Source of the DNA: Elusimicrobiota bacterium
Lineage (GTDB): Bacteria > Elusimicrobiota > Elusimicrobia > Elusimicrobiales > UBA9959
Direction of reading: 5' to 3'
DNA length: 35,630 nt
NCBI GenBank assembly: GCA_022013385.1
Contig: JAKLQJ010000207.1
Coordinates: 1 to 35,630 of the forward strand
Positions 9,082 through 33,879 of the stretch are shown piece by piece. The first letter of the stretch is position 1, and each line of letters begins with the position of its first letter. The translations under genes and the position numbers were made by a program. The notes below the pieces were generated by a model. It saw only the letters and a list, made by a program, of their open reading frames with translations, did no database searches and was not told the DNA's origin.

Positions 9082-10176
9082 TTATAGCGCCAACACTTGC
9101 CTGTGAATTTCTCTAAACGCCGGATATTTTAAAGCCCGCTTAAATAATGACGCATAGTTCTTCTCTATTGCGGCGGATAATCTTATATGCATTCTTACCG
9201 CTTTTTTAATTTCAAGTGTCTTGTTCTTGGAAACATATTTTTTAAACGCGAAAGCGCCGACCGGACACATCAACTCCTTCACCCTTGCGCCATATTTCAA
9301 AGCTTCTTTAAAGAAAAGAGTTTTTTTCTTTCCGCCCGACATCCGTTTAAAAGTATATTTTTCAATGCCTTTACTATCGCTTCCGATAAGCTTATCGCAA
9401 GGAATAAAATTCCCGTCGGGACAAAGAACGGCGCTCATGCAAGATTTATTAAAAGGACGATTGAGAATTTTATCTATAATTTCATAGGTATTCGCGATTT
9501 CATAGATTTGAAGACCTTTTTTAATCAATTGAAAATAATGCCGCCTTAATTTAAGCATTTGGCGCTTTAGCGCCAAAATTTCTTTATCATTCCACACCTT
9601 CGTTATATCCGGCGACCATGCTATATGCCGAAAACCCAATTTATACAAATTCAAAATATCTTCAAACAACCGATTTACCGATTCCTTTTCTATTACGATG
9701 GAGACGGACGTCTTTTGAATGTCAATATATTTTAAAACTCTTTTAATGCCGCTTCTTGCATTATATAACCCCCCCGCAATTTCCCGTTCATTTACGCTAA
9801 TGACCAAATTAACATCAAACCAATTGATGAAACGCGATATTTCTTCATTGATTAAAAGACCGTTGGTAAATATATGAACAGGCAAATCATTCTTTTTTTC
9901 TTTCCTTATAAAAATCAAAACGGCTTTTATCAAATCAAAATGCAAAAAAGGCTCTCCGCCAAGAAATGTTATTTTTTTACCCGCATTTCGTTTATTTTTG
10001 GCCGAAGACTTAAGAAAATTTGAAACCGCGCCAAGTAAAACCTTTTTTTCTATCGCCTTTTTAAATACAGCCCCTCGCGCATAGCAATAATTACATTTGA
10101 GATTGCATAATCCGCTCATGTATATGACAAGATTATTCGGCGCGGTCATAAATTCAGTTTTTGTTATTAACCTCAT
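9082..10176 (-). CDS. Radical SAM protein with partial SPASM-like C-terminus
   Basis: 364 aa; SGLCNLKCNYCYA, FLGGEPFL, IFTNGLLI, CPDGNFIPCD, MCPVGAF; resembles the N-terminal half of the ~700-aa paralogs. Confidence 0.8.
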   Translation of the reverse strand: MRLITKTEFMTAPNNLVIYMSGLCNLKCNYCYARGAVFKKAIEKKVLLGAVSNFLKSSAKNKRNAGKKITFLGGEPFLHFDLIKAVLIFIRKEKKNDLPVHIFTNGLLINEEISRFINWFDVNLVISVNEREIAGGLYNARSGIKRVLKYIDIQKTSVSIVIEKESVNRLFEDILNLYKLGFRHIAWSPDITKVWNDKEILALKRQMLKLRRHYFQLIKKGLQIYEIANTYEIIDKILNRPFNKSCMSAVLCPDGNFIPCDKLIGSDSKGIEKYTFKRMSGGKKKTLFFKEALKYGARVKELMCPVGAFAFKKYVSKNKTLEIKKAVRMHIRLSAAIEKNYASLFKRALKYPAFREIHRQVLAL

Positions 10177-11124: not shown

Positions 11125-12290
11125 TAGCGAAATATACCGCCTATATCAACGATATTATTATTGAAGATAAGAAATATGGCCGCTCCCACAAATATCCACA
11201 AAGCGAACGGCCGCCCTTTTATAATTTCCACTTTTGGTTTTTCCACCTTCAATTTACCAAGCCAATCCTTTAAAATATCAATTTGTTCGGCCGTAAGTCC
11301 ATCCTTAAAGCAATCGTCAAAAGCCCCCTCAAAAACGGAATTATCTCTTAAGGTTCTCAACATCCTGGAAGATAAAACCATATGACTCTCAAGCTCCTGT
11401 GCCTCAATAAACCGAATATCTTTCTTTTCCATGATAAATTCAAACATATATCTTCCGACAAAAAGTATAACGCTAAATTTAAGAACATTCATCAGCGCAA
11501 TCATCAATAATTCCATAAGCCTGTAAGGGAAAAGGAAATAGCCCATAATAAAATACGCGCCGTATGCCGCAAGCGATATATAAACCCATTTTTTGCTTCT
11601 AAAATTTTCAGCCACTTTTTCCCATAAAAAGAAAAGAACGAAATAAATTATTTCCGTCCTCAATATAATCTTACCGAAGGTACCCTTTAATTCCATCGCG
11701 AATATCTGATGAAGCAAAAAAACAAAGCCTATGTTTATAGCGTAAAAAAATATATAAAATTTTTTTAGTCCTCCTTGCTTAGATAGAGCAATCGCTCTCT
11801 CCCGCAAAGCCTGCCATTGCGCGTTAAAAAAATCCGAGGGACTTGCCTGCCTTATACCCTCTGAAACATAATTTATAAACGCGAAAATGGCCGCCGCAAC
11901 AAAAATATTGATAAGCAAGCTTAAAAAAAGATAATGGGGAAAAGTCCTTATAAAAGGGTTTATGAGAGGAAGACAGGAACTTATCAAAATAAAAAATTTA
12001 GCATCCCCCGCAGGCCAAATTTCGCCATACCAAAGTATTATCGCGGCAAGAAGAGTCCAAGCGAAATGAATAAACCAAAGACCGTAAAAACCAATATTAA
12101 GAAAACTGTCTACCTGACCCGCATAGCCCAAATATGTATTATAAGCCATTGCCAAAAAGAATAAAGCGAAAAGTTTTATACCGAGCAGTATTTTTTTATT
12201 GAGGATTTTTTGAATTTCAAAATCTTCCTTTACAACCGCAATGCCCCAACCGGCAAAAACAATTAAGGCTATAAGAGATATTTCGTTCAT
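11124..12290 (-). CDS. Polytopic membrane protein resembling A24 (type IV prepilin) peptidases
   Basis: 388 aa, many hydrophobic segments; two candidate catalytic Asp motifs: VVKEDFEIQKILN near the N-terminus and WPAGDAKFF (compare GxGDxK). Confidence 0.55.
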   Translation of the reverse strand: MNEISLIALIVFAGWGIAVVKEDFEIQKILNKKILLGIKLFALFFLAMAYNTYLGYAGQVDSFLNIGFYGLWFIHFAWTLLAAIILWYGEIWPAGDAKFFILISSCLPLINPFIRTFPHYLFLSLLINIFVAAAIFAFINYVSEGIRQASPSDFFNAQWQALRERAIALSKQGGLKKFYIFFYAINIGFVFLLHQIFAMELKGTFGKIILRTEIIYFVLFFLWEKVAENFRSKKWVYISLAAYGAYFIMGYFLFPYRLMELLMIALMNVLKFSVILFVGRYMFEFIMEKKDIRFIEAQELESHMVLSSRMLRTLRDNSVFEGAFDDCFKDGLTAEQIDILKDWLGKLKVEKPKVEIIKGRPFALWIFVGAAIFLIFNNNIVDIGGIFR

Positions 12291-12301
12291 AATGTTAAAT
12301 A

Positions 12302-13186
12302 TTATAGAGCGCGAATTTCATCGCCGCCGAAATGTTCCGCGTAAGTTCTCATAAGTCCCAGACATTTCTTTTTCTGCGCGCATTGCCGACATTCTTTTAT
12401 ATATATTCTATCTTCCTTGGGCAAAGTAATCCACGCTCGCTCGCGAAGTTCGGCGCCCAACAAACACAACGGAAAATGATACAGCCTAAAATCCGCGAAT
12501 TTTGAAATGAGTTTAAAACTTTTGTTTATAGTTTTTGAAGATTCTTTTAAATTTAAAGCTATCCTCTTATGATTTGTTAAAGACATTCCTTCAATTTCAT
12601 AATGAACGACAATAACCTTATATTTTGATGTGTCCGGAAATTTTCTTAAAAAAAGCCGCAAAATATTATCAAAATCTTTTATATTTTGTTTGATGAGCAC
12701 GATCCTTATTTCCAGTCTTTGGCTCCGGGAAAACTTTAATATATTTTCAATGCCTTTTAACGCTTCTCTAAAACTTCCCTTTGTTTTTGTAATAGATTCA
12801 TGTTTTGCCGCGTTTGAACCATGAAGAGCGCAAGCTATTTCAAAGGGAGGTTTTGCCACGCTCATAAATTTTTTGGTAAAAACTATGTTTGAAAATTTTC
12901 TGGCATTAGTAAGCAAAACAATTTTGGTCAGAGGAACGCGTCTTCTAAAATAAGCGATAAGCTTGAAAAAATCCGGATGCAAAGTGGGCTCGCCTCCGGT
13001 TAAATTAAGAAAACTATTATCCTCGGCATTTTTTAAATAAGTTCCTCCTCTGAACAGATAATTCTCAAATTTTTTAATTTGATGCTTTAGGTCATACTGC
13101 GCGGAATCTTGATTAATAAAAGAAGCCATATTGGTGCACATTATGCATTTACTATTGCACTTATTCCAGAAAGCTATATCAGGCAT
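12302..13186 (-). CDS. Radical SAM protein, HxsC-like small paralog
   Basis: 294 aa; NKCNSKCIMCTNM, LTGGEPTLHP, FPLCLLGAE...CRQCAQKKKCLGLMRTYAEHFG; TAATG-type 1-nt overlap with upstream HxsB-like gene. Confidence 0.8.
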   Translation of the reverse strand: MPDIAFWNKCNSKCIMCTNMASFINQDSAQYDLKHQIKKFENYLFRGGTYLKNAEDNSFLNLTGGEPTLHPDFFKLIAYFRRRVPLTKIVLLTNARKFSNIVFTKKFMSVAKPPFEIACALHGSNAAKHESITKTKGSFREALKGIENILKFSRSQRLEIRIVLIKQNIKDFDNILRLFLRKFPDTSKYKVIVVHYEIEGMSLTNHKRIALNLKESSKTINKSFKLISKFADFRLYHFPLCLLGAELRERAWITLPKEDRIYIKECRQCAQKKKCLGLMRTYAEHFGGDEIRAL

Positions 13187-14604
13187 TATTCAAACCAACT
13201 TTCAAAGATTTTTTTATAACTGTCTTTTTGAAGTTTTTCCGCTATAATCTTAAAAATCCCTTTTTGCAGCCTGCACCAATCGCTATCAGCCATATTGCCC
13301 CACGGAGAGTCTTGTGTTTCATAATTATGCGCCGGACATACGCCGCAAAAAGGCTTAAAGGCGCAGCGAAAGCATTTAATCTGATTTTCAAGACATGAAG
13401 AAATAAGACATAGCTTGGACGCATCAGAGTTGAGCAATTCTTTATATGTATTCTTTCGCGCATTTCCTATTTTAAAAGAAGTATCGCCCTTTGCCGCAAT
13501 CATTCTTCCCTCATCACAAGTATAAATATCTCCGTTATAGTTATAAGCCATTTGCCCTATGCTTCCTCCGCATGGCGAGCGCAAATCCAAATAATTGGGA
13601 TCCTCTTTTTTTATGATTTTACGCAATATTATGGCGGCTGTCCGCTCAATAAATTTGCCTTTGTTTTTGTTTATCTTCAAAATATAATCCAGAGCTTTTT
13701 CATAAAACCAAATATAGTCTTTGGGGGAATATCCGATCTCTTCCCAAACTTCTTTAGCATAGCCTATAGGGGAAAGCGGACGGAGAAAAATTCCGCCAAA
13801 ACCCAAATTATAATATTCGTCCACTATTTTTTGGGGATAACCGAGAGAATATCTTGTGGTGGTCATAAGAGCCGAAGGCAAAGAATCTTTTTGCGCGCCT
13901 GATGATACTGTTTTTTTAAAAAATTTCTTCAGCCATTTAACCGTCAAATTATAAGAATTTCCGCCCAAATAAACTCTATTTTTATTATGAATAAACTCAG
14001 TGCCGTCCAGAGAAGAGCAGATAGATATATTTTCATCTGATAAAAATTTAAATTTTTCATTGTCCATTAGGCTCAAATTGGTAACAAGCGAAATAATAAG
14101 ATTTTTTCTAGCTTTTTTATTTTTCGCTTTGGCATATTTGACAGCCTTTTTTACAATCGCCCAATTCATAAGCGCTTCGCCGCCTTGAAATTCTAGGGTT
14201 ATATTCGGGTTGGGGCTTTCAAACGCCATATTTATACTTTCTTGAACAGTTTCAAAAGACATGTTCGTATTTAAAAAATCACGCTGACGGCTAACGGCTC
14301 TGCAATAAAGGCAAGTATGATTGCATTTAAGAGTTACCACTATGATGTGCAAACTCGGTCCGCCAAAGCGAAAAGGCATAAGTTTATTAAGCTGACGCGA
14401 TAATCCTTCAAAATCCAAATAATCCCTCAAAAAACCTTCTTTCTTTAAATCCTGATAGATTTTGGATTTCTCGGAAAAATTATCGTTTGAAATTTTATTA
14501 AAATCTCCGGCGCTAATCATCAGCCAATTGCCAAAATCGTTTGAAATAAAATACTTTTCTCCGATTTTTTCAAAATTTAAATTACATAAATTGCTTTTTT
14601 TCAC
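13186..14604 (-). CDS. hxsB: HxsB-like radical SAM/SPASM maturase
   Basis: 472 aa; N-terminal YFISNDFGNWLMIS, LKCNHTCLYCRA, FQGGEALMNW, CGGSIGQMAYNYNGDIYTCDEGRM, FRCAFKPFCGVCPAHNYE; GTG start preceded by AGGAGGTGG. Confidence 0.78.
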   Translation of the reverse strand: MKKSNLCNLNFEKIGEKYFISNDFGNWLMISAGDFNKISNDNFSEKSKIYQDLKKEGFLRDYLDFEGLSRQLNKLMPFRFGGPSLHIIVVTLKCNHTCLYCRAVSRQRDFLNTNMSFETVQESINMAFESPNPNITLEFQGGEALMNWAIVKKAVKYAKAKNKKARKNLIISLVTNLSLMDNEKFKFLSDENISICSSLDGTEFIHNKNRVYLGGNSYNLTVKWLKKFFKKTVSSGAQKDSLPSALMTTTRYSLGYPQKIVDEYYNLGFGGIFLRPLSPIGYAKEVWEEIGYSPKDYIWFYEKALDYILKINKNKGKFIERTAAIILRKIIKKEDPNYLDLRSPCGGSIGQMAYNYNGDIYTCDEGRMIAAKGDTSFKIGNARKNTYKELLNSDASKLCLISSCLENQIKCFRCAFKPFCGVCPAHNYETQDSPWGNMADSDWCRLQKGIFKIIAEKLQKDSYKKIFESWFE

Positions 14605-15709: not shown

Positions 15710-17116
15710 CTACCCATTGTAAAGAGAAAGCCACCCTTCAAATATTTTTCTCTCGGATTTCTTATTTAATCGCTGAGATATCATATTAAAAATTCCACAA
15801 TAAATCTTGCATCTGTCATTAGTCGCCATATTCCCCCAAAATGAATTTTGGGAAGAAATATTTAACGCGGGCATTATATGACAATAAGGACTCCACGGGC
15901 AGCGAGAACATTTCGGCTGACTTAAAAAATTAAAATCGGCCAAAAGCAGAAGTTTAGCAAGAGGTTTTCTCAAAATATCGGTTAAACTGTCATTTTCAAG
16001 ATTTCCAAGTTTAAGCAAATCAATTCCCGAATTGGACAACATCCTAGCTTCATCACTGCCATAAATGCTCCCGTCAAAGTTATAAGCAATTCTTACCAAT
16101 AAATCAAGGTTATGATATCTTGGCCTTTCCGCGGTCAAAATCTGCTTTATGAACATGAAAGCGCCTTTTTCGTAAATAGGAACGCCTTTTTTATTCAAAA
16201 CAACAATATAATCAAACAGTTTATTATAGAACTTCAGAAATTCATTGGGCGAATACCCGACCTTATCCCAATTTGTTTTTGCCCTCCCCGCTTTATCCAA
16301 TGGCCCCACTTGAATTCTATTCAAGCCAATCCTTAAATGCTCATCAACTATTTCTTTTGACCGGCTTAAGGACTGCCTGCTTATAGTGCAAATTGCATTA
16401 GGCTGTTCGGTTTTACCTTTTTTAGCAAAAGAATTTATTTTTTTAAGCCATTTTGAAACTGTTTCATAAGATGATGTGTTATCTATAGGCCTCCTGTTCA
16501 AATCATGCAATCTGCGATGGCCATCAAGAGAGCCGCATATCGCGACTTTGTGTTTTAATAAAAACTCAAATTTTTTATTGTCCATCAAAGACAAATTCGT
16601 GACGATTGAAAAGTTTAGGTTTTTTTTATGAATTCTGTTTCTTTTTTCAGATTCCTTGATAATATATTCGACACCCTTGAAATTCAAAAGAGGCTCTCCG
16701 CCCTGAAATTCTACCATGAGATTTTTATTATCAATGGAAAAAATGAAATTAACCGCTTTTTTTGCGGTTTTAATTGTCATGTCGCTTTCAGATGGACTAA
16801 AAAGTCCTGAATTCGCTCCGCAGTAATGACAGAAAAAATTACATCTTTTTGTCACGCTTATGATATGGACATGGGGGCCTTTCCAATTTGTAAAAAATCT
16901 TTCCTTTATAATGCCAAAAACTTTGTCAAAATCAAGATAATTGCCAAAGAAAAAATTATTAAGCAAATCGTTCTCGGCCGACCTGCCAATCTTCTTTTTT
17001 TTTACCATGGCATAAAAATCAGACGAGCTTAAAAAACAATTTAATCCCATAAAGTTGCTTAGAAAATACCTTTTTCCAACTTTCGCAAAATTGAAATCAA
17101 ATATATTCTTTTTCAT
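15710..17116 (-). CDS. HxsB-like radical SAM paralog with degenerate SPASM region
   Basis: 468 aa; TKRCNFFCHYCGA, FQGGEPLLNF, SLDGHRRLHD; aligns with the other HxsB-like proteins but lacks several C-terminal cysteines. Confidence 0.75.
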   Translation of the reverse strand: MKKNIFDFNFAKVGKRYFLSNFMGLNCFLSSSDFYAMVKKKKIGRSAENDLLNNFFFGNYLDFDKVFGIIKERFFTNWKGPHVHIISVTKRCNFFCHYCGANSGLFSPSESDMTIKTAKKAVNFIFSIDNKNLMVEFQGGEPLLNFKGVEYIIKESEKRNRIHKKNLNFSIVTNLSLMDNKKFEFLLKHKVAICGSLDGHRRLHDLNRRPIDNTSSYETVSKWLKKINSFAKKGKTEQPNAICTISRQSLSRSKEIVDEHLRIGLNRIQVGPLDKAGRAKTNWDKVGYSPNEFLKFYNKLFDYIVVLNKKGVPIYEKGAFMFIKQILTAERPRYHNLDLLVRIAYNFDGSIYGSDEARMLSNSGIDLLKLGNLENDSLTDILRKPLAKLLLLADFNFLSQPKCSRCPWSPYCHIMPALNISSQNSFWGNMATNDRCKIYCGIFNMISQRLNKKSERKIFEGWLSLYNG

Positions 17117-18195
17117 GTGTATCCCTTTTTAAATTCCTTTATGAGATACTTTAGATATCTTTTAAAATTTGTTTCTTTTCGCGACAAGAAAATTATTTTT
17201 TTTACAGCATCTTTTGAAATTTCGGTTCTCATTTTATAAGCCAAACTTCCCGCCCGCAAATGATTTAATTTGTAATAATTTTTAAGACAATTTGCGCATT
17301 TTTCCGAATTTAAATCAGGCAAACATTTTAGAAATTTTTTCTCAATACCCTTTTCAATATCCCCTATGACCACCTTTTTTCTTTCAGACAAATTTTTTAT
17401 AAAAGGATAGGGATAAAGCGAAAAAGAACCATCCGGATACATTTCAAAGTCCCTCAAAAACGGACAAAAACTGTTTTTATATTCCCTTTCTCTAAAAAAC
17501 TCCAAAAAAGATTCTAGTAAAATAAAATCAAGCTTCCGAGCTCTTTTAAGTATAAAGGAAATTATTCTTCGCATATTTTCATCAAACTGCCGATAATCGC
17601 CTTTTCTCCATTTAAATCCGTGGACGCATTCTATTCCTATATTTTTAAAACCCAATTCAATCAGTTTTAAAAAATCCTTGCGCATATATTTGACTCTTTC
17701 GGGATGAACACAAAAAATAACATGCGCATTTTCCCTCATAATGGAAAGCATACGGGGTATTTTGGATTTCAGATATTTATGAGTGCCTTTGCCGGAATGA
17801 AACTTTCGATTAAAATTCTGAGTAGTCCTGCTTCCGGAAAAACTGATTGAAAAACGGATATTATTATCAGCCATATATCTTAAAGATTTTTCATCCATAA
17901 GCACGCCATTGCTTGCCACGGAAATAACAAGGTCTTTGTTTTGTATTTCGGCCATTTTAAAAGCTTTTGAAATAATTTTATCAACCAAATCAAAATAAAG
18001 CAGGGGTTCTCCGCCATATATTTCCAGCAGTTTCTTTTTTCCGGGAGAAGCAATAAAAATCTTCACAGCCCTGAGCGCTTTATCAAATGAAACTTTCTCT
18101 TTCAAATTTTTATCAATAAAACAATGCGAACACCTGAGACAACAATCCGATGTCAAAGCTATTTTAAATTTGTTTATTTCTTTGTTAAATGACAT
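17113..18195 (-). CDS. Radical SAM/SPASM-like protein
   Basis: 360 aa; SDCCLRCSHCFI, IYGGEPLLYF, CPFLRDFEMYPDGSFSLYPYP, KCANCLKNYY; 4-nt overlap with the downstream HxsB-like gene. Confidence 0.8.
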   Translation of the reverse strand: MSFNKEINKFKIALTSDCCLRCSHCFIDKNLKEKVSFDKALRAVKIFIASPGKKKLLEIYGGEPLLYFDLVDKIISKAFKMAEIQNKDLVISVASNGVLMDEKSLRYMADNNIRFSISFSGSRTTQNFNRKFHSGKGTHKYLKSKIPRMLSIMRENAHVIFCVHPERVKYMRKDFLKLIELGFKNIGIECVHGFKWRKGDYRQFDENMRRIISFILKRARKLDFILLESFLEFFREREYKNSFCPFLRDFEMYPDGSFSLYPYPFIKNLSERKKVVIGDIEKGIEKKFLKCLPDLNSEKCANCLKNYYKLNHLRAGSLAYKMRTEISKDAVKKIIFLSRKETNFKRYLKYLIKEFKKGYT

Positions 18196-22196: not shown

Positions 22197-24236
22197 TTAA
22201 TCGTTGCTCCGCTTATCAATTTCTCCGCTAAAAAGTCCCGAAGCAAGTTTTAGATTTTTTAATGCCGAAACCGCCAGATTCCTCCGCTTGCGGTCATGCA
22301 GATACATTTCCACAGAGAGCTTTTTCCACCATTTCAAAACCATAGTGTCAAAAGCTTGTTTAGAAGATAGGCTTGAACCCACTCTCTCTTTTTGAATATT
22401 TTGAACTGTTAAGCAAATATTTCCGCCGCAATCAAATGAAACACAAGCTGTAGAAGAACCGCCATTTCGCGCTAAGTAAGGAGCGCAATTTTCAATAAAA
22501 ACACCTTGCAATCCTTTCAAATATCGCCCCGTTTTTTCCAAACTTGCGCTAAATTTCAAGCAAGAATTCAATGATGCTTCCGCGGGAATTTTTATTTCCA
22601 ACCGAACAATGCTCGCCCCGCGGTAAACAATTTTTTTAATTCTGCGCTGGGGATTCTCGCCATGCATAATGTTAAGACCGCAAATGAGCCGATCTGAACC
22701 AAGTTTTTTAAGCAAATATTTAAACTTACTTCCCGCAATATTCTCAACATTTCGCACACATAAAAAAATATTGTGTTCCGCAAGAAATTCTATTTCTCCA
22801 AAGTCCAAACAATAATCGGATACTTCCGCTATAATCCGCAGTTTTTTGCCAAGCATTTTGGTTTTCATAAGAGAATAAAACACAATTTTTTCAAAAATTT
22901 CAAAAACATCGCATGAACCTGATATAAAGAAAACAAGTTCCTTGAAATTCCCTTTAGAATAAATAAAATAATCAAAAGCCTCTCTTAAATCGGCAAGTTC
23001 TCCGTATTTTTCGTTCAGTTCAACCTTTAATCGCTTAATTTCTTTGTCACATATGCGGGGAGGCAAATGTTCCATATCACCAAATTTTCTATCACGAGAA
23101 AGATCCGACATTATTCCTTCAGCCCTAAGATATTGGCCCAGTTTCTCCTCAAAAATTCTGAAGACATTTACTGTGCTGCCAAACAGCTTATCGGGGTCAA
23201 TTCCTTTTAGCTTTATGCCGAAATAAAGCAAAATGGGATTAGAAATGTATTTGGTAAGATTATAACGCTTGTCTGTTTTTCGAAGAAAGCGAGCGGCAGA
23301 AACTCGCAATCGCGCAGCTTTAATATAATCCAGTCCGGACTTAATGTCGCCTATTCTATATTTGTATCTATTTTTTCCGTAGGTTGAAACCAATCCGCAC
23401 GGATAAAAAAAACCATCGGGTCCCAGAGACACTTCTCTAAATCCCGGCAGACAGGAAAGCGCCTCTCCTCTCTCTTTCAATTGAAGAAAATCCAATCCGA
23501 AACGGAAAGTATTAAAAGACGATATTCCAGCAGGCACGAGCTCTTTGTAATAAGAAGCTAGGCGTTCCAATCCGATTTTAAGAAGTTTTAGACTCCCTGC
23601 ATCCCAGACTTCCAAATATTTCATATTGATTTGAACTTCCTTAAAATTAAGACTCCTAAGAAACTTGACATTATCGGCAATATCCATAACATTATTGCTT
23701 GTCACTGTCATGCCAACAGATATATTGCGCACCAGTTCCGTCGGTATTTTCTCCAAATTTTTCATAACTATTTCAAAAGGAGAACTCAAGCTGTTTGCGC
23801 GAAACACACGATTGCGATCATTTGATGACATAACTCCGTCCAAACTTAGCACAAGCTTAACGCCTTGTTCCAATAAACGGGAAACATTATCTTCGTTCAA
23901 GAGAATTCCATTGGTAAAAACCTCTATTTTTAACGGATATTTCACCTTTTTTCTGAGAAACCTTACGGTTTTATCCACCACAGGAAAACATAGAAACGGT
24001 TCGCCTCCGGCTATGGCTATTTTCTCTATCTTGGAAATATCCCTTCCTCTCATATAATTTTCAATTCCGGTCTTGACCTGTTCAAAAGACAAGAAAGTCG
24101 GTTTTCCGCTGTTCAGTGTTTCGTAATAACAATAACGGCATGCCATATTACAACGATTGGTGAGACAAATATCAAGAGAACAGGCCGTATGCATGCATTT
24201 TAAAGCCACATTATCGTTTTTTAAAACTTTGCTCAT
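22197..24236 (-). CDS. Large (679 aa) two-domain radical SAM protein: N-terminal rSAM plus C-terminal degenerate rSAM-like domain
   Basis: TNRCNMACRYCYYE, IAGGEPFLCF, VFTNGILL, LSLDG; C-terminal half homologous to those of the next two genes. Confidence 0.78.
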   Translation of the reverse strand: MSKVLKNDNVALKCMHTACSLDICLTNRCNMACRYCYYETLNSGKPTFLSFEQVKTGIENYMRGRDISKIEKIAIAGGEPFLCFPVVDKTVRFLRKKVKYPLKIEVFTNGILLNEDNVSRLLEQGVKLVLSLDGVMSSNDRNRVFRANSLSSPFEIVMKNLEKIPTELVRNISVGMTVTSNNVMDIADNVKFLRSLNFKEVQINMKYLEVWDAGSLKLLKIGLERLASYYKELVPAGISSFNTFRFGLDFLQLKERGEALSCLPGFREVSLGPDGFFYPCGLVSTYGKNRYKYRIGDIKSGLDYIKAARLRVSAARFLRKTDKRYNLTKYISNPILLYFGIKLKGIDPDKLFGSTVNVFRIFEEKLGQYLRAEGIMSDLSRDRKFGDMEHLPPRICDKEIKRLKVELNEKYGELADLREAFDYFIYSKGNFKELVFFISGSCDVFEIFEKIVFYSLMKTKMLGKKLRIIAEVSDYCLDFGEIEFLAEHNIFLCVRNVENIAGSKFKYLLKKLGSDRLICGLNIMHGENPQRRIKKIVYRGASIVRLEIKIPAEASLNSCLKFSASLEKTGRYLKGLQGVFIENCAPYLARNGGSSTACVSFDCGGNICLTVQNIQKERVGSSLSSKQAFDTMVLKWWKKLSVEMYLHDRKRRNLAVSALKNLKLASGLFSGEIDKRSND

Positions 24237-26326
24237 AGCGAAACCTTTGTATGATTATTAGCGCTCTCAAGGCAATGAAAAGAACTATGTCTTTCCGATT
24301 CTCGATAACATTGTTTAATATACCTACGCCCAATTCCGGAAATAAGAAGCTTTCCAATCAATTCTTTAAATTTTTTATCAAGGTTTGACTGCATAATATT
24401 TTCCGCGGTATTTTTAAAGGAACAATGAGCGCATCTGCTCGAATATCCTTTGCGAACGCAAATTTTCAATTCTCTCTCAAATACGCTCATGGTTTCACCA
24501 ATATTTGATTTTTCTCCTTCAAAACTTAAAAAACCGTTGCCATTCATTTTTAGGCGCCGAGATAAGGGACATTTAATGGCCATTTTGGATTTATCTGAAT
24601 TTTGTAATAAGCTAAGAAAATTCATAAAGAAAATGGGGCGCTCTTTATTTATAAATCGTGAAAAAACCATTTTCTTAAAATTTTCCCAGACTCGCGGACA
24701 TATACGCTTTCTTGACATTATGATAAAATGAAAAAAACCGGTCATTGCAGTTTTGCTAATTTTTATAGGCCACATTGAGCCGATTGCTTGAATCTCAATT
24801 TGAATCTTTTCAGGCCGAAGTTTTTGTAACAGCTCAGTCAGCCTTCCGCTCCTAGGCAAATTGCGGCATAATCTGAGAAAAATATCATGTTCCGCCATAA
24901 AATCCGCTTCCTGAAAATCCGGCCATTCATTTTTTACGGCTTCTATTATAATCCTTATCCTTTTTTTTAAATATTTCGCCTTAAGAAGACTATAAACACA
25001 TATTCCCTTTACATTCTCAAAGGTAGCCGAACCAAAACATCCGCTCAATATAAGTTCTTTTTCATTGCCTTGAGAATATAGCATGTTATCGACAGCCTCA
25101 CGGGCCTGCCATAATTTCAAAAATTTTCCCCTGTCCGTCATTTCTACGCGCATACATTTTATAGGCTCCGAGCATTCATTTTTTGGTTTATGAAAAAAAT
25201 CGCCAAAATCCCTGTCGGATTCTAAAAGTGCGGCAATACTGTCGCTATCCACCACTTGATGAACACTTGAAGAAGAAAGATAAAGACTTTCTCCGCTACT
25301 AAGCAATTTTACGGGATCATTTCCGATTATCCTGCTGTAAAAATAAAGATTAACGGGGCAAGCTGCATAACCCTTAAAATACGCCATAGAAAAATAATCT
25401 TTTACTTCTTTCAGAACAATTTTTATTTTTTTCAAATCTATTCCGTCTTTTAAATTTCCAAGTTTGTATAAGCTTCGGGCTGAGTCTTGCGCCGAAATAA
25501 GCCCTGTCGGATAAAAACTTCCATCCGGACCGAGAGAAAGTTCTCTAAAAGAAGGCAATCTGAGTATGGCATCCTTTTCCTCTCTTGAAAAAAGAAAATC
25601 CAGTCCCACAGGGCTTCTTCCATAGTTTTGAAAAGATTGTCCGGCCATTTTAGCGCATATGCTCTTTACTTTAAGCAAAACTCTTTCAAGAAGTTTCAAT
25701 TTAGACGGCTTCCAAATCTCAAGAATATCTATGTCTACAAGCACTTCTTTAAACCCCAATCCGGCCAAAAACTTTATATTGGTGTCCATATGTTCAACGG
25801 TTTTGGAATTAAAAGTAACTCCGGCATACATCTTTCCAACCCTTTTGGAGCCAAGTTTCCTGAGATTTGCCATAATAACATCAAAAACGGAATGAGAACT
25901 TGCCGCTCTAAAATGACGATTAATATCCGTGGTTTTTTTGTCTCCGTCAATGCTTACTATAATTTTTATCCCTTGAGACAATAAAAAATCTATTTTGTTT
26001 ACAGTCATCAATGTCCCATTCGTAAAAAGTTCTATTTCAACTTTGGGGCCAACCGCGCGGCGCGCATATTTCACCACCTTTGCCAAAAGCGGAAAATCCA
26101 AAAAAGGCTCTCCTCCTCCTATGGATATTTTTTCTATCCCGCCGCCGCGACTTTTGAGATAAAGATCCAATCCGTGCGAAATCTGTTTAAAAGAAAGTTT
26201 GACCGGTTTCGCCCGCGCTTTTGCGGACCAATAACAGTATCGGCAAGACATATTGCATATATTGGAAAGACAAATATCAAATTCGGGCGGTATGGCGGAT
26301 TGAATGACAGAATTGCTTTTTTTCAT
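24233..26326 (-). CDS. Large (697 aa) two-domain radical SAM protein
   Basis: SNICNMSCRYCYWS, IGGGEPFLDF, LFTNGTLM, VSIDG; paralog of flanking genes; 4-nt overlap with 22197-24236. Confidence 0.78.
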   Translation of the reverse strand: MKKSNSVIQSAIPPEFDICLSNICNMSCRYCYWSAKARAKPVKLSFKQISHGLDLYLKSRGGGIEKISIGGGEPFLDFPLLAKVVKYARRAVGPKVEIELFTNGTLMTVNKIDFLLSQGIKIIVSIDGDKKTTDINRHFRAASSHSVFDVIMANLRKLGSKRVGKMYAGVTFNSKTVEHMDTNIKFLAGLGFKEVLVDIDILEIWKPSKLKLLERVLLKVKSICAKMAGQSFQNYGRSPVGLDFLFSREEKDAILRLPSFRELSLGPDGSFYPTGLISAQDSARSLYKLGNLKDGIDLKKIKIVLKEVKDYFSMAYFKGYAACPVNLYFYSRIIGNDPVKLLSSGESLYLSSSSVHQVVDSDSIAALLESDRDFGDFFHKPKNECSEPIKCMRVEMTDRGKFLKLWQAREAVDNMLYSQGNEKELILSGCFGSATFENVKGICVYSLLKAKYLKKRIRIIIEAVKNEWPDFQEADFMAEHDIFLRLCRNLPRSGRLTELLQKLRPEKIQIEIQAIGSMWPIKISKTAMTGFFHFIIMSRKRICPRVWENFKKMVFSRFINKERPIFFMNFLSLLQNSDKSKMAIKCPLSRRLKMNGNGFLSFEGEKSNIGETMSVFERELKICVRKGYSSRCAHCSFKNTAENIMQSNLDKKFKELIGKLLISGIGRRYIKQCYRESERHSSFHCLESANNHTKVSL

Positions 26327-26331
26327 AATTT

Positions 26332-28458
26332 TCAGTCTTTATTTGTAAATAGGCCGGAAAAAATTTGTTTCATTTTAAGCATATCCTTAAGATATCTCTT
26401 ATTCGCCAAAAAGATTATTTTTTCAAAAATGCCGCTCAAAAACCTCTCATTAAACACAACGGTCAGGTTTTTCCGGCGGACAAGGCCGCTGCACTTTTTA
26501 CATTCGTATGACAGTGATGAAAAAGAGCATTTGGAATAATGGCTACAAAAACCGAATCCGCTTTTACCGACAAAGGTCATATCGGAACAAGGAAAAAACC
26601 CATAAACACCTTTGGCGCATAATTGCAGAAAATGATTGAACGGACATTCCGTTTTGTTTCTTTTTTTATCCAAAAAAATATCCAAATTTTTCAAAAATAT
26701 CGGCTTTAACGCCGTATTATTCTCAATTTGTTTTACCGCCGCGCCAAGACAAGAAGAAAATTCTTTGTAATTCGCTTTAGATGATTCAACGCTAAAAGAA
26801 ACAAATCCGCTTCGCAAAAGGCTTTTAAAAATACTATTCCACCGCATCCGTTTTCTTCCGGGCCTCACAATAACCGCGACAAACTCAGGTGAAATGCCTG
26901 ATGGCATATGTAAAACCTTTTCACCGTCATAAACAATCTCAAGGAATAATTGATGTTCCCGAATAAAATTACTCAAGCGTTTGTCGTATCCGCTTTTATT
27001 GAAACACACAATAAGACGAAGCTTCTTGCCAAGTTTTTCCGACTTCATCAATGCGTAAGCGGATACTGTAAAAATGAAATCGCAATCCCCTGCCGGATCC
27101 TCGATTTTAAGACGAATTTCCTTTTCATTGCCGGGAGAATAAAGCGCGAAATCAATGCCTTCTCTTACAGCGCTCAAAGAAAGCTGACCGTCCTTTCCCT
27201 TATGTCCCACTTCCACCGTTATTGTCGATATTTCCTTGTCGCTCTTGAAAACAGGGGGATGATTTAAATCTCCAAACTTACCATCTTTAATCGCGGCATT
27301 CAACGCATTATCCAAAGTTATGATACCGCCAATCTCTTCTCTGAATATGTCCGAAATCTTTCTGTCGCTTTTAAAAAATTTCGGAACATTTTTTTTCATC
27401 ATCTTACAATCAAAAAAACCGCCTACCGGGCATTGCGCGCATTCACTGGCGTCATGTTTGCCAAGAACCGAATCCACTTTTATCAGTTCTCTTCGCAATT
27501 TAAGAAGATCTATCCCGGTTCGAAAATGCCCTATTCTGTACGCTTTTCTTGATTCAGGACCCAAAGCGGGAACCGTACACGGATAGAAATATCCGTCATA
27601 ACCTAAAGCTATTTCGTCTGAAATACGAGGAATCCTGCGGCTTTTTAAATCCGGAAAATAAACAGGAAACATATAAGTCGCGCTATACGGCCAATTACCG
27701 GACATAAGTCTTTTTTTATATTCGCTTTTCAGCTGACACAATGCTTTGCGCAGGCGTTTTATTCCTTTTTTATTCCATATTTCAAACATATCCAAACCCA
27801 ATGAAATTTCTCCGAAACCAAGTTCAAGAAGACATTTCACGCTTTCAAGTAAACTGGAAACTGTTTCGGAAGTAGTGGTGGAAGATGCAACAAGACGAGA
27901 ACGCATATTAGGAGTCAAACTACGCAAATTGGATGCCACAGCATCAAAAACAGATTCCTCGGGATGATCAATAAACACTCTGTTTAGGTCATTGATTTTT
28001 TTAGCGCCGTCCAGACTCACAACTATTTTAACCCTTCGTTCCAATAAAAAAGCTACATTCTTGCGATTCAGAAAATATCCGTTGGTATAAACGCCGATTT
28101 CAAGGTCGTTTCCCGCCTTGCGCCGCAAGTATTCAATAGCCTTTTTAAGAAGTTCGTAATGCGAAAAAGGCTCCCTGCCGGCAAAATCCACTTTTCTGAC
28201 TAAAGAAAGTTCTGTGCCAAGATCAGCTACTTTATCCGACGCGGTAAGAGAAAGCCATTTATCCAAACCTTCTCTTAATTCTATCCATCTCAAAGTTTGC
28301 TGCGGCCCCCGCGCATCCATTCTGTAATAGCAATATCGACAAGCCATATTGCATTCGCTTGAAAGGCATACTTCAAGTTCGGTCGGAACAAGCATAAGAC
28401 ATGATTTAATATCACTACCCCATGCTTTTGAAGTATTATCGGCGCTAGTCATAATCAC
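26332..28458 (-). CDS. Large (708 aa) two-domain radical SAM protein
   Basis: SSECNMACRYCYYR, FAGREPFSHY (GREP instead of GGEP), VYTNGYFL, VSLDG; Cys-rich C-terminus. Confidence 0.78.
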   Translation of the reverse strand: MIMTSADNTSKAWGSDIKSCLMLVPTELEVCLSSECNMACRYCYYRMDARGPQQTLRWIELREGLDKWLSLTASDKVADLGTELSLVRKVDFAGREPFSHYELLKKAIEYLRRKAGNDLEIGVYTNGYFLNRKNVAFLLERRVKIVVSLDGAKKINDLNRVFIDHPEESVFDAVASNLRSLTPNMRSRLVASSTTTSETVSSLLESVKCLLELGFGEISLGLDMFEIWNKKGIKRLRKALCQLKSEYKKRLMSGNWPYSATYMFPVYFPDLKSRRIPRISDEIALGYDGYFYPCTVPALGPESRKAYRIGHFRTGIDLLKLRRELIKVDSVLGKHDASECAQCPVGGFFDCKMMKKNVPKFFKSDRKISDIFREEIGGIITLDNALNAAIKDGKFGDLNHPPVFKSDKEISTITVEVGHKGKDGQLSLSAVREGIDFALYSPGNEKEIRLKIEDPAGDCDFIFTVSAYALMKSEKLGKKLRLIVCFNKSGYDKRLSNFIREHQLFLEIVYDGEKVLHMPSGISPEFVAVIVRPGRKRMRWNSIFKSLLRSGFVSFSVESSKANYKEFSSCLGAAVKQIENNTALKPIFLKNLDIFLDKKRNKTECPFNHFLQLCAKGVYGFFPCSDMTFVGKSGFGFCSHYSKCSFSSLSYECKKCSGLVRRKNLTVVFNERFLSGIFEKIIFLANKRYLKDMLKMKQIFSGLFTNKD

Positions 28459-28658: not shown

Positions 28659-29786
28659 TTAATCTTCTCTACCCAAAATTTTCTTGACGCGCTTGTTTAT
28701 TTCTTTCAATTCCTTTTCCCTTTCTTGTTTTTGTTTTTGTTTTATTGTCTCCAATTCCCTTTTCTTTTCTTGCGCCTGTTTTATTTTTTCAAATTCCTTT
28801 TCCTTTTCTTTCGCCTGTTTTATTTTCTCTCTTTCAGCCATTATCTTTTTGTATTTTTGTAAATTTTCGCAATACAAAAAGCTCAATCTTTTAGCGATAG
28901 GCTCGCAACTTTTGGAATTATGATTTTCAAAAGCTTCGCAAATCTCTTTGTAGCCCTCAGGGCAATCTTTCGGCCTTGAATTTTTTATCGCCTTATAAAT
29001 CTGCAAGTTGTCCATACAAATTTTGGAACTCTCCCCCTCACAATCTTTTTTATTCTTGGGAAAAGTTTTAAGACAAAGACTGTTAGCGGGGAGATATTTT
29101 GAAATTGAAGAACAAATATTTTCCATGCCATTTGAAGCGACGGAGCAAAAATCACTAATCGGAACGCTCAAATCTTCCATATCCATAAACTCGGCAGTTA
29201 TGAATGCGTGGCAAGTTCCTTCATCTTTATGTTTGCCGGCCATATAGCCTGCGAACATTACGCGACTAGACATACCCCTGCATATACCTCTCAAACTCCT
29301 GTCCTTGTCATCTAATTCATCCTCCGGGGTTAATATTTTTCGGGGAAGAGATATGATATTGGGGTCTGTTGACGAATTACAAAGGCGCATATCGCCAGAA
29401 GACGCGGCTTGGCAAGAGAAATAACTACTGATAAGCTTATACATCTCGGAATCTTCTCTCAAAAAATAATTTTCTCCGATATCGGCATCACCCCAAATCT
29501 TTCCGTAGGAAGACATGATATCTCTCAAAGAACCTTCTTTGCAAACGCCTTTCGTATTCTTTAAACCGGGAGAATCACTGTCTTCCAAACCTGTTAAATC
29601 GCGAGTCATCGCATCAAGAGCTTCTATATGGTCAGTAGCATCAGGCGGCAAAGAAACACCTGCCGGTTCAACATAAGCCTTTTGCGCCGTTTGCTTTTCA
29701 TGGCCATAATATTTTCTCTGCATTATCTGCAAAGCGGCTAAAAAAGCAAGTATCACGACAATAATTAAAATAAGCCATTTATTCAC
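28659..29786 (-). CDS. Cys-rich membrane-anchored hypothetical protein with coiled-coil tail
   Basis: 375 aa; N-terminal hydrophobic segment MNKWLILIIVVILAFLAALQ, about 14 Cys in the middle, charged K/E/Q heptad-like C-terminus. Confidence 0.7.
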   Translation of the reverse strand: MNKWLILIIVVILAFLAALQIMQRKYYGHEKQTAQKAYVEPAGVSLPPDATDHIEALDAMTRDLTGLEDSDSPGLKNTKGVCKEGSLRDIMSSYGKIWGDADIGENYFLREDSEMYKLISSYFSCQAASSGDMRLCNSSTDPNIISLPRKILTPEDELDDKDRSLRGICRGMSSRVMFAGYMAGKHKDEGTCHAFITAEFMDMEDLSVPISDFCSVASNGMENICSSISKYLPANSLCLKTFPKNKKDCEGESSKICMDNLQIYKAIKNSRPKDCPEGYKEICEAFENHNSKSCEPIAKRLSFLYCENLQKYKKIMAEREKIKQAKEKEKEFEKIKQAQEKKRELETIKQKQKQEREKELKEINKRVKKILGRED

Positions 29787-30074: not shown

Positions 30075-30458
30075 CTAACACCAACCTCCACGGGCATGTG
30101 AGCCGTGTGAGCCGTGTGAGCCATGCGAGCCATGCGAACCATGCGAACCATGAGAACCATGAGAACCGTGAGAACCGTGAGAGCCATGAGAGCTATGAGA
30201 GCCATGAGAAGCATGAGAACCGTGTGAGCCGTGTGAGCCGTGAGAGCCATGACTTTGATGGCTTACATGATAGTTCGATTTGAAATAATTTGAATGAATC
30301 GCGGCATGAGTCACACTCGCATCCATTATAGCTCCGCCAAGAATTCCAAGAGCGAGACCGGTTTTAACAATATCCGAATCAAGCATCTTGCCTTCTTCAC
30401 TGCTCAAAAACATTTTTATGTTTTTGCTTATTCTGTTTTTTTTATTTTTTTTGTCCAT
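30075..30458 (-). CDS. hxsA: HxsA-like His-Xaa-Ser repeat precursor protein
   Basis: 127 aa; FLSSEEGK..., hydrophobic segment, then 19 HxS tripeptides (15 HGS plus HVS, HQS, HAS, HSS), ending HARGGWC; AAGGAACAGGGG upstream of ATG. Confidence 0.88.
   Translation of the reverse strand: MDKKNKKNRISKNIKMFLSSEEGKMLDSDIVKTGLALGILGGAIMDASVTHAAIHSNYFKSNYHVSHQSHGSHGSHGSHGSHASHGSHSSHGSHGSHGSHGSHGSHGSHGSHGSHGSHGSHARGGWC
30096..30269 (-). repeat. 9-bp coding repeat encoding His-Xaa-Ser
   Basis: 20 in-phase His codons spaced exactly 9 bp, with synonymous variation among CAC/CAT, TCA/TCG/TCT, GGC/GGT. Confidence 0.95.
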
Positions 30459-30610: not shown

Positions 30611-30916
30611 TCATTGCATATGCTCTCCGGCCGCAGATAGCAGAGCCTTTGTCACTATTATTTTGGAAATCCGAGAATTTTTTTTAGTTAAATCTATTCT
30701 GCATTGCTGGTTTAAAATCTCATTGATAAAGTCATCGGCCATGTTTCCTTCATTTGATTCATTCGCTTTGAATTTAATTTCAACTTTTCCGCTTTTAATT
30801 TTGCGCCTTATATCTGCCCTATCCGCATAAATATAAGTAGCCAAAGCAATAGCCTCTTCGGAATATATATCCCCGTCAAGGATAAATGTTTTAATATCAC
30901 TGTCGTTTTTTTTCAT
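30611..30916 (-). CDS. hxsD: HxsD-like protein
   Basis: 101 aa; ...YSEEAIALATYIYADRADIRRK... FINEILNQQCRIDLTKKNSRISKIIVTKALLSA resembles the HxsD layout (LLNDYxLRE-type motif); AGAGGTG upstream of ATG; adjacent to hxsA. Confidence 0.65.
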   Translation of the reverse strand: MKKNDSDIKTFILDGDIYSEEAIALATYIYADRADIRRKIKSGKVEIKFKANESNEGNMADDFINEILNQQCRIDLTKKNSRISKIIVTKALLSAAGEHMQ

Positions 30917-31089: not shown

Positions 31090-32568
31090 TTAACTCTCAA
31101 CTGTTTTTTGCACCCATTTCCTTAAAATAGCCGCTTCCTTAGGTTTAGCAAGCAATTCGAATATCGCGTCAAATATACCCATAAACAATTTGCATCTTTC
31201 ATTGGACGGCATATTGCCCCAAAGATTTTGCTGAGTTTCATAATTATAAACCGGACAAACTCCGCAAAAAGGCTTATACGCGCAACGAAAGCATAAAGGC
31301 TGTTGTTCAAGATTTGAAGACAAAACACAGCTTTTAGTTACCGGACTGCCCATAACAGATAAATATGTATCTTTAAAAACATTGCCCGTTTTAAATATTT
31401 CATCTCCGCTCCAGCCTATCATTCTTCCTTCATCACAAGTATATAAATCGCCGTTATGATTATAGGCGAGCTGACCTATTGAAGCTCCGCAAGGGCATCT
31501 CATGTCAAGATAGCCTGGATCATGAGCATTCAATACTTTATCCAATATCATCATGGCCGTTTTTTCTCTTATAACCTTCTTGGCATTAAGCCGAACTATG
31601 TGATTGAGAGCTTTTCTATAAAAAGAAATGAAATCATCCGCCGAATAACCGATAATATCCCAATATTTTTTCGCATATCCTATCGGCGCCAAAGGCCTTA
31701 TAAAAATATCTTCCAACCCTTGTTTAACATATTCGTCTACGATTTTCTCGCCGCTGGCAAGAGAGTTTTTTGAAACCGTAAGAAGAGCGCTGGGTTTAAA
31801 TATTCTATAATTTTCATTCTGTCTGTCATGCCTAGCATTAAAATATTTCAACCATTTAATCGTCACATCATATGAACTTGCTTTGCGGAACATTCTATTT
31901 TTATCGTGAATACTTTTGGGGCCGTCCAAAGAAGTGCAAATAGAAACTTCATGTTCCATTAAAAACCGCGCTTTTTCTTCGGTCATTAAAGAGAAATTGG
32001 AAACCAAAGCAAGAATTAAACCTTTTTTTAATTTTTTTTCCACACTTCTGGCATATATCACGGTTTTTTTGAGAACATCCCAATTTAAAAGCGGCTCTCC
32101 CCCTTGAAATTCTATCGTTATTGAAGGATTTGGACTTTTGAAAGCAAAATCCACACTGGCCTTGGCGGTTTTAAATGACATATCCGTATTTTTTTTAGAA
32201 GAATCAACCGCGCTCGACTGGCAATATACGCAGGTATGATTGCACCTTAATGTCATGACAAGAATATGCAGCCCCGCTCCGCCAAACAAATAACTATTCG
32301 CGCTTCTCCATCTCGCGGACAAATTGTCAAAATTCATGCGAGTCCTGATAAAACCTTTTTCAGCCAAACTCTCAAAAATCTTGGATTTTTCAGGCAATTT
32401 GGATTTAAGCCACTTATCAAATTCAAGAGGCTTCAAATACTTAAAATTACCGAAATCGTTAACTAAAAGATATTTTCCGGGAAATCTCCGCCAACGACTA
32501 TCGGGAATAACTCCATAAGCGCGACGAGCTTTCGCTTTATTTTTTGTTCTTTTTGTTTTTACCGGCAT
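31090..32568 (-). CDS. hxsB: HxsB-like radical SAM/SPASM maturase
   Basis: 492 aa; YLLVNDFGNFKYL, LRCNHTCVYCQS, FQGGEPLLNW, CPCGASIGQLAYNHNGDLYTCDEGRM, FRCAYKPFCGVCPVYNYE. Confidence 0.82.
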   Translation of the reverse strand: MPVKTKRTKNKAKARRAYGVIPDSRWRRFPGKYLLVNDFGNFKYLKPLEFDKWLKSKLPEKSKIFESLAEKGFIRTRMNFDNLSARWRSANSYLFGGAGLHILVMTLRCNHTCVYCQSSAVDSSKKNTDMSFKTAKASVDFAFKSPNPSITIEFQGGEPLLNWDVLKKTVIYARSVEKKLKKGLILALVSNFSLMTEEKARFLMEHEVSICTSLDGPKSIHDKNRMFRKASSYDVTIKWLKYFNARHDRQNENYRIFKPSALLTVSKNSLASGEKIVDEYVKQGLEDIFIRPLAPIGYAKKYWDIIGYSADDFISFYRKALNHIVRLNAKKVIREKTAMMILDKVLNAHDPGYLDMRCPCGASIGQLAYNHNGDLYTCDEGRMIGWSGDEIFKTGNVFKDTYLSVMGSPVTKSCVLSSNLEQQPLCFRCAYKPFCGVCPVYNYETQQNLWGNMPSNERCKLFMGIFDAIFELLAKPKEAAILRKWVQKTVES

Positions 32569-33016
32569 ATTTTTCTTCCCATGTTTGGTTTATTTTTAAC
32601 GGATCCTGCTTCTTGCAGTCTGAAGATTCCTTTTTTATTTCTTTCTCCACCTGACTGATAAGCTCATCCAGCTCTTTTTCCTGCTCAGGAGTCAAACCTG
32701 CATCTTCCGCTTGCGGTTGCGATTTTTCTTCATAAGACAATGCTTTGAGAATTAAAAACTCTCTAAGCTCTGAATTATTTTTAAATATGTCCGCGCGAAT
32801 CTTTTCGTTTTTAAGCTCCTCTGTAAACCGCATTGCCGTCTTTTTAACGGAATTTCTGCCCTTTTGTTTAAGAGAAACCTCAATTATCTTAGAGCTCAGT
32901 TTCTTTAATAAAACATACGCCTCATCCGTAACGGAATAAGCGGCATATCTTATATTATCCAAGGGATACTCCCGTAAATTGGATTTTAATAAAATTTTCT
33001 CTTTTGAATGTTTCAA
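32537..33016 (-). CDS. Second HxsD-like protein (long form)
   Basis: 159 aa with TTG start at 33014-33016 behind AAGGAGA; IRYAAYSVTDEAYVLLKKLSSKIIEVSLKQKG...RFTEELKNEKIRADIFKNNSELREFLILKALS resembles HxsD. The ATG at 33076 in the ORF track would overlap the upstream CDS. Confidence 0.6.
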   Translation of the reverse strand: MKHSKEKILLKSNLREYPLDNIRYAAYSVTDEAYVLLKKLSSKIIEVSLKQKGRNSVKKTAMRFTEELKNEKIRADIFKNNSELREFLILKALSYEEKSQPQAEDAGLTPEQEKELDELISQVEKEIKKESSDCKKQDPLKINQTWEEKYAGKNKKNKK

Positions 33017-33039
33017 TTTTTCTCTCCTTAAATCGCTAT

Positions 33040-33879
33040 TTACTGAATCCTGCAACATAACATCTGCCCATTCCAATCTTGACCAAGGGATATAAGACTT
33101 CCAACGCCTCCGCCCTCACCAGATGCCGGCAAAAATCCCACTACTCTGGGCCAACCGTCACCATACAGAGCAAAAACTCTTTCATTGGCCGCGCAGAATG
33201 TAGTTGCGGCCGCAACAGTATAATCCCTAAGCGTGCACATTCCTGTAAGTATGCCGGACATATAAACATTACCAGCGCCGCCTGTACTAGCATCATTGAC
33301 TGACATCACAAGGGAAGCCATATTATAATCACTATAGAATCTCATGCCGTTATAGCTAGCATTAGCCCCAAACTTGATGCCTGTATGGAATGCTATCCTA
33401 AGATCAGGATAGGGATTAGACCATGCGCCCGCTTCTCTATATATTCCATAGGCATCACCGGCATGCCAATAAATTCCGGCTGTTGAATCGGTGGCAACAC
33501 TTCCTGCTTGCGTTAAAGATATTTGACCTCTAACAGCATCTGTGCCACCGATATGAAGCGTTCGCGCAGGATTTACCTCTTTAATGCCGACTCTGCCCGA
33601 TGTGTTGAACAGGACATTCCCCGCCCCTTCTACATGTAGTTTTCCGGCCGGCGTCGCTATCCCAATTCCAACATTACCGCTATCTCTCGCCAAAACAGTC
33701 TGGTCCGTAGTGAGAAGCTTGGCATATCCGCCATACGGAGATGGATAGTATGTGGTAAGGGTCAATTGTTCACAGCCCAAAATCTTAGGATGGAAACAAA
33801 TAAAGAACGCCGTCAAAAGCGCCAATGCTTTGAACCTTGTTAGTTGAAATTGAATAATCAGAATTTTTTTATTTTCCAT
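33040..33879 (-). CDS. Secreted fibre/adhesin-like protein with NVGIG repeats
   Basis: 279 aa; N-terminal hydrophobic export signal, LTLTTYYPSPYGGYAKL, GNVGIGIATPAGKLHV, GRVGIKEVNPARTLHIGG, C-terminal CTLRDYT...MLCCRI. Confidence 0.7.
   Translation of the reverse strand: MENKKILIIQFQLTRFKALALLTAFFICFHPKILGCEQLTLTTYYPSPYGGYAKLLTTDQTVLARDSGNVGIGIATPAGKLHVEGAGNVLFNTSGRVGIKEVNPARTLHIGGTDAVRGQISLTQAGSVATDSTAGIYWHAGDAYGIYREAGAWSNPYPDLRIAFHTGIKFGANASYNGMRFYSDYNMASLVMSVNDASTGGAGNVYMSGILTGMCTLRDYTVAAATTFCAANERVFALYGDGWPRVVGFLPASGEGGGVGSLISLGQDWNGQMLCCRIQ

Follow-up and report, generated by a model that had tools for sequence, protein, structure and literature searches.

Three tandem proteins of an Elusimicrobiota His-Xaa-Ser locus appear to join a live radical-SAM barrel to a degenerate one

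We analysed a 35,630-nucleotide stretch of DNA from an Elusimicrobiota bacterium (the window; contig JAKLQJ010000207.1 of assembly GCA_022013385.1) that carries a His-Xaa-Ser (Hxs) locus for a ribosomally synthesized and post-translationally modified peptide (RiPP) and, within it, three neighbouring genes for proteins of about 700 amino acids (aa), referred to here as tandem proteins 1, 2 and 3. As judged by sequence comparison, each is an enzyme of the family of the stand-alone radical S-adenosylmethionine (SAM) protein at 9082..10176 (the N-half) fused to a relative of the live 360-aa radical-SAM family represented at 17113..18195 (the C-half). We are nearly certain of the architecture, a live barrel followed by a dead barrel of separate origin. 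The C-half would most likely act as a partner or docking domain in His-Xaa-Ser RiPP maturation, comparable to the TrnC–TrnD pair, and we give this reading a probability of roughly 55%. An earlier note, made from the letters alone, had proposed three paralogues with a second, degenerate radical-SAM domain, and profile–profile comparison, hidden Markov model (HMM) scores against shuffled sequences, a tree, and AlphaFold with Foldseek all bear this out.

Layout of the tandem proteins

Tandem protein 1 (708 aa, 26332..28458), tandem protein 2 (697 aa, 24233..26326) and tandem protein 3 (679 aa, 22197..24236) are encoded by reading frames that stay open throughout, in a co-directional run with one 4-base overlap and one 5-base gap; these genes and all their parts, and the two stand-alone genes named above, lie on the minus strand. 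A frameshift or assembly artefact was ruled out by the three open frames here together with independent copies in two other genomes. In each protein, an N-terminal radical-SAM barrel with CxxxCxxC leads into a helical linker that closes with FGDxxHxP, after which the second barrel begins. Pfam places one Radical_SAM domain in each, in the N-half only, and NCBIfam agrees.

The PF04055 scores of the three N-halves (58, 63 and 45 bits; cut-off 29.5) place them in the radical-SAM superfamily. The motif for the SAM [4Fe-4S] cluster reads CNMACRYC in tandem protein 1 (residues 36–43, 28330..28353), CNMSCRYC in tandem protein 2 (26234..26257) and CNMACRYC in tandem protein 3 (24129..24152), and it is kept in 23 of 23 N-type barrels. 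A GGEP-type motif is likewise present in all three, as GGEP in tandem proteins 2 and 3 and as GREP in tandem protein 1, where GREPF replaces GGEPF at residues 94–98 (28165..28179). One paralogue in a genome of the same family, Elusimicrobia bacterium WAS_Bin_5 (G013), has GNEP at this position.

The C-halves are different. CxxxCxxC is lacking in all 22 C-domains examined, which therefore do not have the motif of a radical-SAM enzyme; the loop that would hold it, between β1 and α1, has been lost together with the GGEP turn, whose position is unconserved. Both absences had been read correctly from the window copies, and without this loop and turn a C-half is not expected to generate a radical. 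At the former SAM site GGEP, ECVHG and CxxxCxxC are all gone and no residues are conserved. Two orthologous-looking copies in other genomes (L022:29-1567 and L051:2749-3744) retain a longer loop with CxC, likely a half-way stage of the loss. The description of these domains as cysteine-free was wrong taken literally, as the three window C-halves have 10–12 cysteines each.

The best conserved part of the C-half is the linker with the β1-α1-β2-α2-β3 core that follows it, at residues 394–493 of tandem protein 1 (26980..27279), 373–472 of tandem protein 2 (24911..25210) and 384–483 of tandem protein 3 (22788..23087). The linker motif is FGDLNHPP in tandem protein 1 (residues 395–402, 27253..27276), FGDFFHKP in tandem protein 2 (25184..25207) and FGDMEHLP in tandem protein 3 (23061..23084). 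An alignment of 17 C-domain sequences (A1) is invariant at G21, D22, H25, P27, R52, D56, Y89, K93 and L97, so that its members share GDxxHxP, an R and a D in α1, and Y, K and L in α2/β3.

Descent and predicted fold of the C-halves

The whole C-half comprises residues 394–708 of tandem protein 1 (26335..27279), 24236..25210 in tandem protein 2 and 22200..23087 in tandem protein 3. When isolated, that of tandem protein 1 matched TIGR04064 (E 8.8e-7), PapB NF047865 (E 0.0044) and HxsB TIGR03978 (E 0.0094) in NCBIfam, in each case downstream of the CxxxCxxC motif. The isolated C-halves of tandem proteins 2 and 3 had no NCBIfam match, and the sequences of relatives were therefore needed. Scored with a profile built from the live 360-aa family, the three C-halves gave 25.5, 29.1 and 54.6 bits, against 7.3, 8.1 and 8.9 bits for the best of 2000 shuffles of each. 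With the HxsB profile, the C-half of tandem protein 2 reached 5.0 bits and did not exceed its shuffles (7.3).

Comparison of profiles by hhalign gave the same order of relatedness. The C-domain profile matched the 360-aa family at E 1.5e-19, HxsB at 3.8e-10 and its own N-halves at 1.8e-9, with reversed and unrelated controls at 0.09–0.85; among the families tried, only radical-SAM families matched, and no unrelated one. The alignment spans the 360-aa family from near its N-terminus nearly to its C-terminus. In a maximum-likelihood tree, the C-domains form a single clade (100/98) that is sister to the 360-aa family (97/86) and not nested in it, with HxsB next; five N-halves, including the three from the window, group with the 9082 family (93/89). 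Among the N-halves, 21 of 21 scored best with the HMM of the 9082 family (a profile built from matching reading frames only); among the C-halves, 21 of 22 did so with that of the 360-aa family, although the scores of the shortest C-domains were near zero.

The fusion junction is clean. Stand-alone 9082-type proteins stop at PxFxxxH where the tandem proteins carry FGDxxHxP, and the end of the 9082..10176 protein itself, PAFREIH, is the position at which the linker FGDxxH begins. The C-half then begins where the 360-aa protein naturally starts (KEIxKLK), reading DKEIKRLKVEL against NKEINKFKIAL in the 360-aa protein. An internal duplication, in which the C-half derives from the N-half, was rejected, because the C-halves match the 360-aa family better than either the 9082 family or their own N-halves and do not group with the latter in the tree. 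HxsB was also rejected as the donor, since the 360-aa family surpassed it in the profile comparison, in the HMM scores and in the tree, and HxsC gave no signal (hhalign E 0.1). The earlier note had aligned the C-halves with the start of HxsB-type barrels. The resemblance to radical-SAM barrels does go beyond chance, but the 17113..18195 family is closer than HxsB, and in tandem protein 1 the collinear resemblance extends close to the C-terminus.

The C-half of tandem protein 1 is predicted by AlphaFold to fold as a partial α/β barrel (β1-α1-β2-α2-β3-α3-β4-β5-α-β6-α), and not as something lacking a barrel of the triosephosphate isomerase type; the input alignment consisted of tandem proteins only and held no live stand-alone radical-SAM protein. 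The mean predicted local distance difference test score (pLDDT) is 62.9 and the predicted template modelling score (pTM) 0.64, with pLDDT mostly 67–92 up to about residue 160 and poor values at residues 199–284. When this model was compared with the PDB by Foldseek, the peptide maturase CteB came out on top (5why/5wgg, E 1.4e-4 to 6.9e-4), followed by anSME; three CteB chains were the only matches with E < 0.001, with ChlB and further barrels lower down at E ~0.1. CteB, a sactipeptide maturase, is thus the closest solved fold, although it is itself a live single-barrel enzyme. The full-length model (mean pLDDT 70, pTM 0.63) has two barrels linked by a long helix (residues 358–391). The fold prediction and the radical-SAM profile matches together support well the proposal of a live and a dead barrel in tandem. 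It is hardly credible that the C-half is an unrelated α/β domain that merely resembles a radical-SAM barrel: it has no meaningful Pfam match and only weak sequence matches in the PDB (none significant in a direct search), but the profile, shuffle, tree and fold evidence all contradict this.

A putative partner domain

We propose that two radical-SAM barrels are permanently paired in each tandem protein. The substrate for the SAM-radical chemistry of the N-half would be a peptide of the Hxs RiPP locus. The C-half would serve as the built-in non-catalytic partner of the N-half, holding the substrate or docking the enzyme to other maturases; a role in substrate binding or scaffolding had been suggested before and is plausible. 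Partners that are themselves pseudoenzymes are familiar among kinases, and two radical-SAM units occur within one protein in FbiC, a fusion of CofG and CofH. In the open-access literature (subscription papers were outside the scope) we found no description of a fusion between a live and a dead radical-SAM barrel, and the only useful precedents for degenerate or fused radical-SAM pairs were TrnC–TrnD and Dph1–Dph2. Dph1 and Dph2 form a heterodimer of two radical-SAM units (PMC11048331). In this pair, as in FbiC, both units bind clusters, whereas in the tandem proteins one unit has lost the motif. TrnC and TrnD of the thuricin CD pathway form a tight complex in which only the radical chemistry of TrnC is strictly essential (PMC12093266). 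They resemble the tandem proteins as two radical-SAM units acting together on RiPP precursors, and the dependence between N-half and C-half may be like the need of TrnC for its complex with TrnD, but they are separate proteins and both active, whereas the partner in the tandem proteins is fused and without a SAM cluster motif.

The fusion, counted as full-length matches to profile A1 with the linker included, is present in three of 342 Elusimicrobiota genomes: that of the window, G013, and G232 from another family of the class. The copies in G013, about 15 in number, are mostly of 450–500 aa and end directly after β3 of the second barrel, with one full-length form (727 aa); in the several copies of G232 the C-halves measure about 250–280 or about 130 aa. 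Across these three genomes and two families, the linker and β1–β3 core is kept in 21 of 22 copies, and the remainder of the C-half is variable or deleted. Over 210 pairs, the mean identity is 36.5% for this core and 31.8% for the N-halves. The C-half might instead be a drifting leftover of the fusion, lost stepwise and with no role beyond harmlessness, as the graded erosion from full length to remnants of about 250 and about 90 aa, the vestigial CxC loop described above and the divergence of the distal part would suggest. We think this improbable, given the retention of the core, its invariant residues and an identity no lower than in the catalytic half; a terminal SGLL/SGLF motif also recurs among several full-length forms.

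Partnership is further suggested by the occurrence of the donor families as separate genes. The stand-alone 360-aa gene is retained in all three fusion-bearing genomes. It is found in 27 of the 59 genomes of the window's family, and the 9082-type gene in 25, of which 24 also have the 360-aa gene (both genes in 24, neither in 31, discordant in four; Fisher 3.1e-12; within one genus 10/1/0/21, p 1.7e-7). Separate donor genes that travel together are what a fused pair of partners predicts, and the stand-alone 17113 and 9082 proteins are likely partners. HxsB exceeds its cut-off in 54 of the 59 genomes, with 1–4 paralogues per genome, and a third, divergent, low-scoring HxsB occurs in exactly the 27 genomes with the 360-aa gene when borderline cases are assigned by score.

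Several observations weigh against a partner or docking role for the C-half or against parts of the history proposed for it. Beyond the core, the window C-halves are 16–20% identical, which is the level of shuffled sequences (19.9%). Most C-halves in G013 end after β3, so that a complete second barrel is dispensable in that genome. Four N-halves from G013 and G232 fall outside the 9082 group, on a separate branch of the tree. The counts of co-occurrence over the 59 genomes ignore shared ancestry, save for the check within one genus. Finally, no separate precursor peptide adjoins the tandem genes, and the substrate is therefore an assumption.

The cysteines bear on another possibility, namely that the C-half acts chiefly as an electron-transfer module, which lost its SAM site and kept an auxiliary [4Fe-4S] cluster to serve an N-half without auxiliary ligands of its own. 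CP and Cx8CxxC, probably an auxiliary-cluster site of the 360-aa family, are invariant in six live members (where the spacing is 6–8) and are retained in matching alignment columns in tandem protein 1 (Cx8CxxC at 26491..26529, CP at 26644-26646), tandem protein 2 (24422..24460, CP at 24569-24571) and the full-length G013 copy (L021:324-2507). In most N-halves, moreover, the cysteines that follow the barrel are too few to hold an auxiliary cluster. Against this, the four-cysteine set has been lost in tandem protein 3 (where the CxxC is gone), in the G232 copies, long forms included, and in all short forms; the N-half of tandem protein 1 has four late cysteines of its own; and the region of its C-half that holds the auxiliary-like set has a pLDDT <50. 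We therefore consider an electron-transfer module unlikely as the main function, and suggest that the C-halves of tandem proteins 1 and 2 may additionally hold an auxiliary [4Fe-4S] cluster, which would not be general. Less likely still, the C-half could bind a small molecule or regulator (SAM, a nucleotide or another) at the old active-site mouth and tune the N-half allosterically; full-length forms do retain the barrel shell, but the former SAM site has no conserved residues and a closed pocket is missing from the short forms.

A tentative extension of the partner role, which we regard as doubtful, is that the half-barrel (FGDxxHxP with β1-α1-β2-α2-β3) is a portable adaptor that descends from a dead radical-SAM enzyme. 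It would imitate the 360-aa partner and thereby plug from three to about 15 paralogous enzymes into one Hxs complex, allowing many modifications on one or a few peptides. The series found within this one phylum, from live stand-alone donor through full dead barrel with auxiliary cysteines and dead barrel without them to half-barrel remnant, offers a way to address a question posed by TrnC–TrnD, namely which portion of a radical-SAM partner is important when a peptide is modified.

The Hxs locus and related families

The window has the components of a His-Xaa-Ser system: an HxsA repeat peptide, HxsB and HxsD. HxsB is at 31090..32568 (minus strand; TIGR03978, 475 bits), with paralogues at 13186-14604 and 15710-17116; the His-Xaa-Ser repeat precursor HxsA4, the presumed substrate of the locus, at 30075..30458 (minus strand; NF038313, 77 bits); and HxsD at 30611..30916 (minus strand; TIGR03976, 53.6 bits, cut-off 50). 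A second HxsD-like protein (32537-33076), overlapping the start of hxsB, scores 40 bits, under the same cut-off, and several HxsC-like proteins fall under that of TIGR03977. PF04055 has 19 matches in the contig (333-32568), mostly HxsC-like, HxsB-like or PapB-like, and 52 genome-wide.

HxsB shares the locus with the tandem proteins, its live barrel is homologous to both of their halves, and the core of the C-half can be aligned with the HxsB segment SxDFAFxSPN...EF. HxsB differs in having one live barrel only, extended at the N-terminus and with a SPASM-like end, and the tandem proteins reach only 68–76 bits against the TIGR03978 cut-off of 370. Of the named families, PapB (NF047865) scores highest with two of the three tandem proteins (105–118 bits over the three) and with the 17113 (134 bits) and 9082 (100 bits) proteins, all of them under its curated cut-off of 340; to our knowledge, PapB has no second barrel. 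The NCBIfam model TIGR04347 has 'pseudo-SAM' in its name, so that dead members of the radical-SAM superfamily had already been noticed. None of the C-halves, taken alone, matched this pseudo-SAM/SPASM model at E values up to 1, and we know of no TIGR04347 protein in tandem with a live barrel.

In G013, two proteins of 822–874 aa (L023:8128-10752 and 12092-14560), which share a contig with tandem genes, have a NifH-like domain followed by a weak match to nitrogenase component 1. A link with nitrogenase-like genes was rejected, as strong NifH-like matches occur in G013, G021 and G232 and none in the window's genome. G013 also encodes a pyruvate-phosphate-dikinase-like protein (L021:6860-9157) that starts with a radical-SAM barrel fragment without CxxxCxxC, matching the N-half profile at E 2.4e-13 (model positions 146–228). 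Should the half-barrel indeed be a portable adaptor, this second, different dead fragment, fused to a dikinase-like enzyme in the cluster of a relative, would be another one. A dikinase-like gene is present in the G232 cluster as well (L050:5095-6903). Two further window proteins, a membrane-anchored cysteine-containing protein (28659-29786) and a secreted-looking TTYYPxPYGGY protein with no Pfam match (33040-33879), recur near HxsA/HxsB in relatives (L025, L055, L056).

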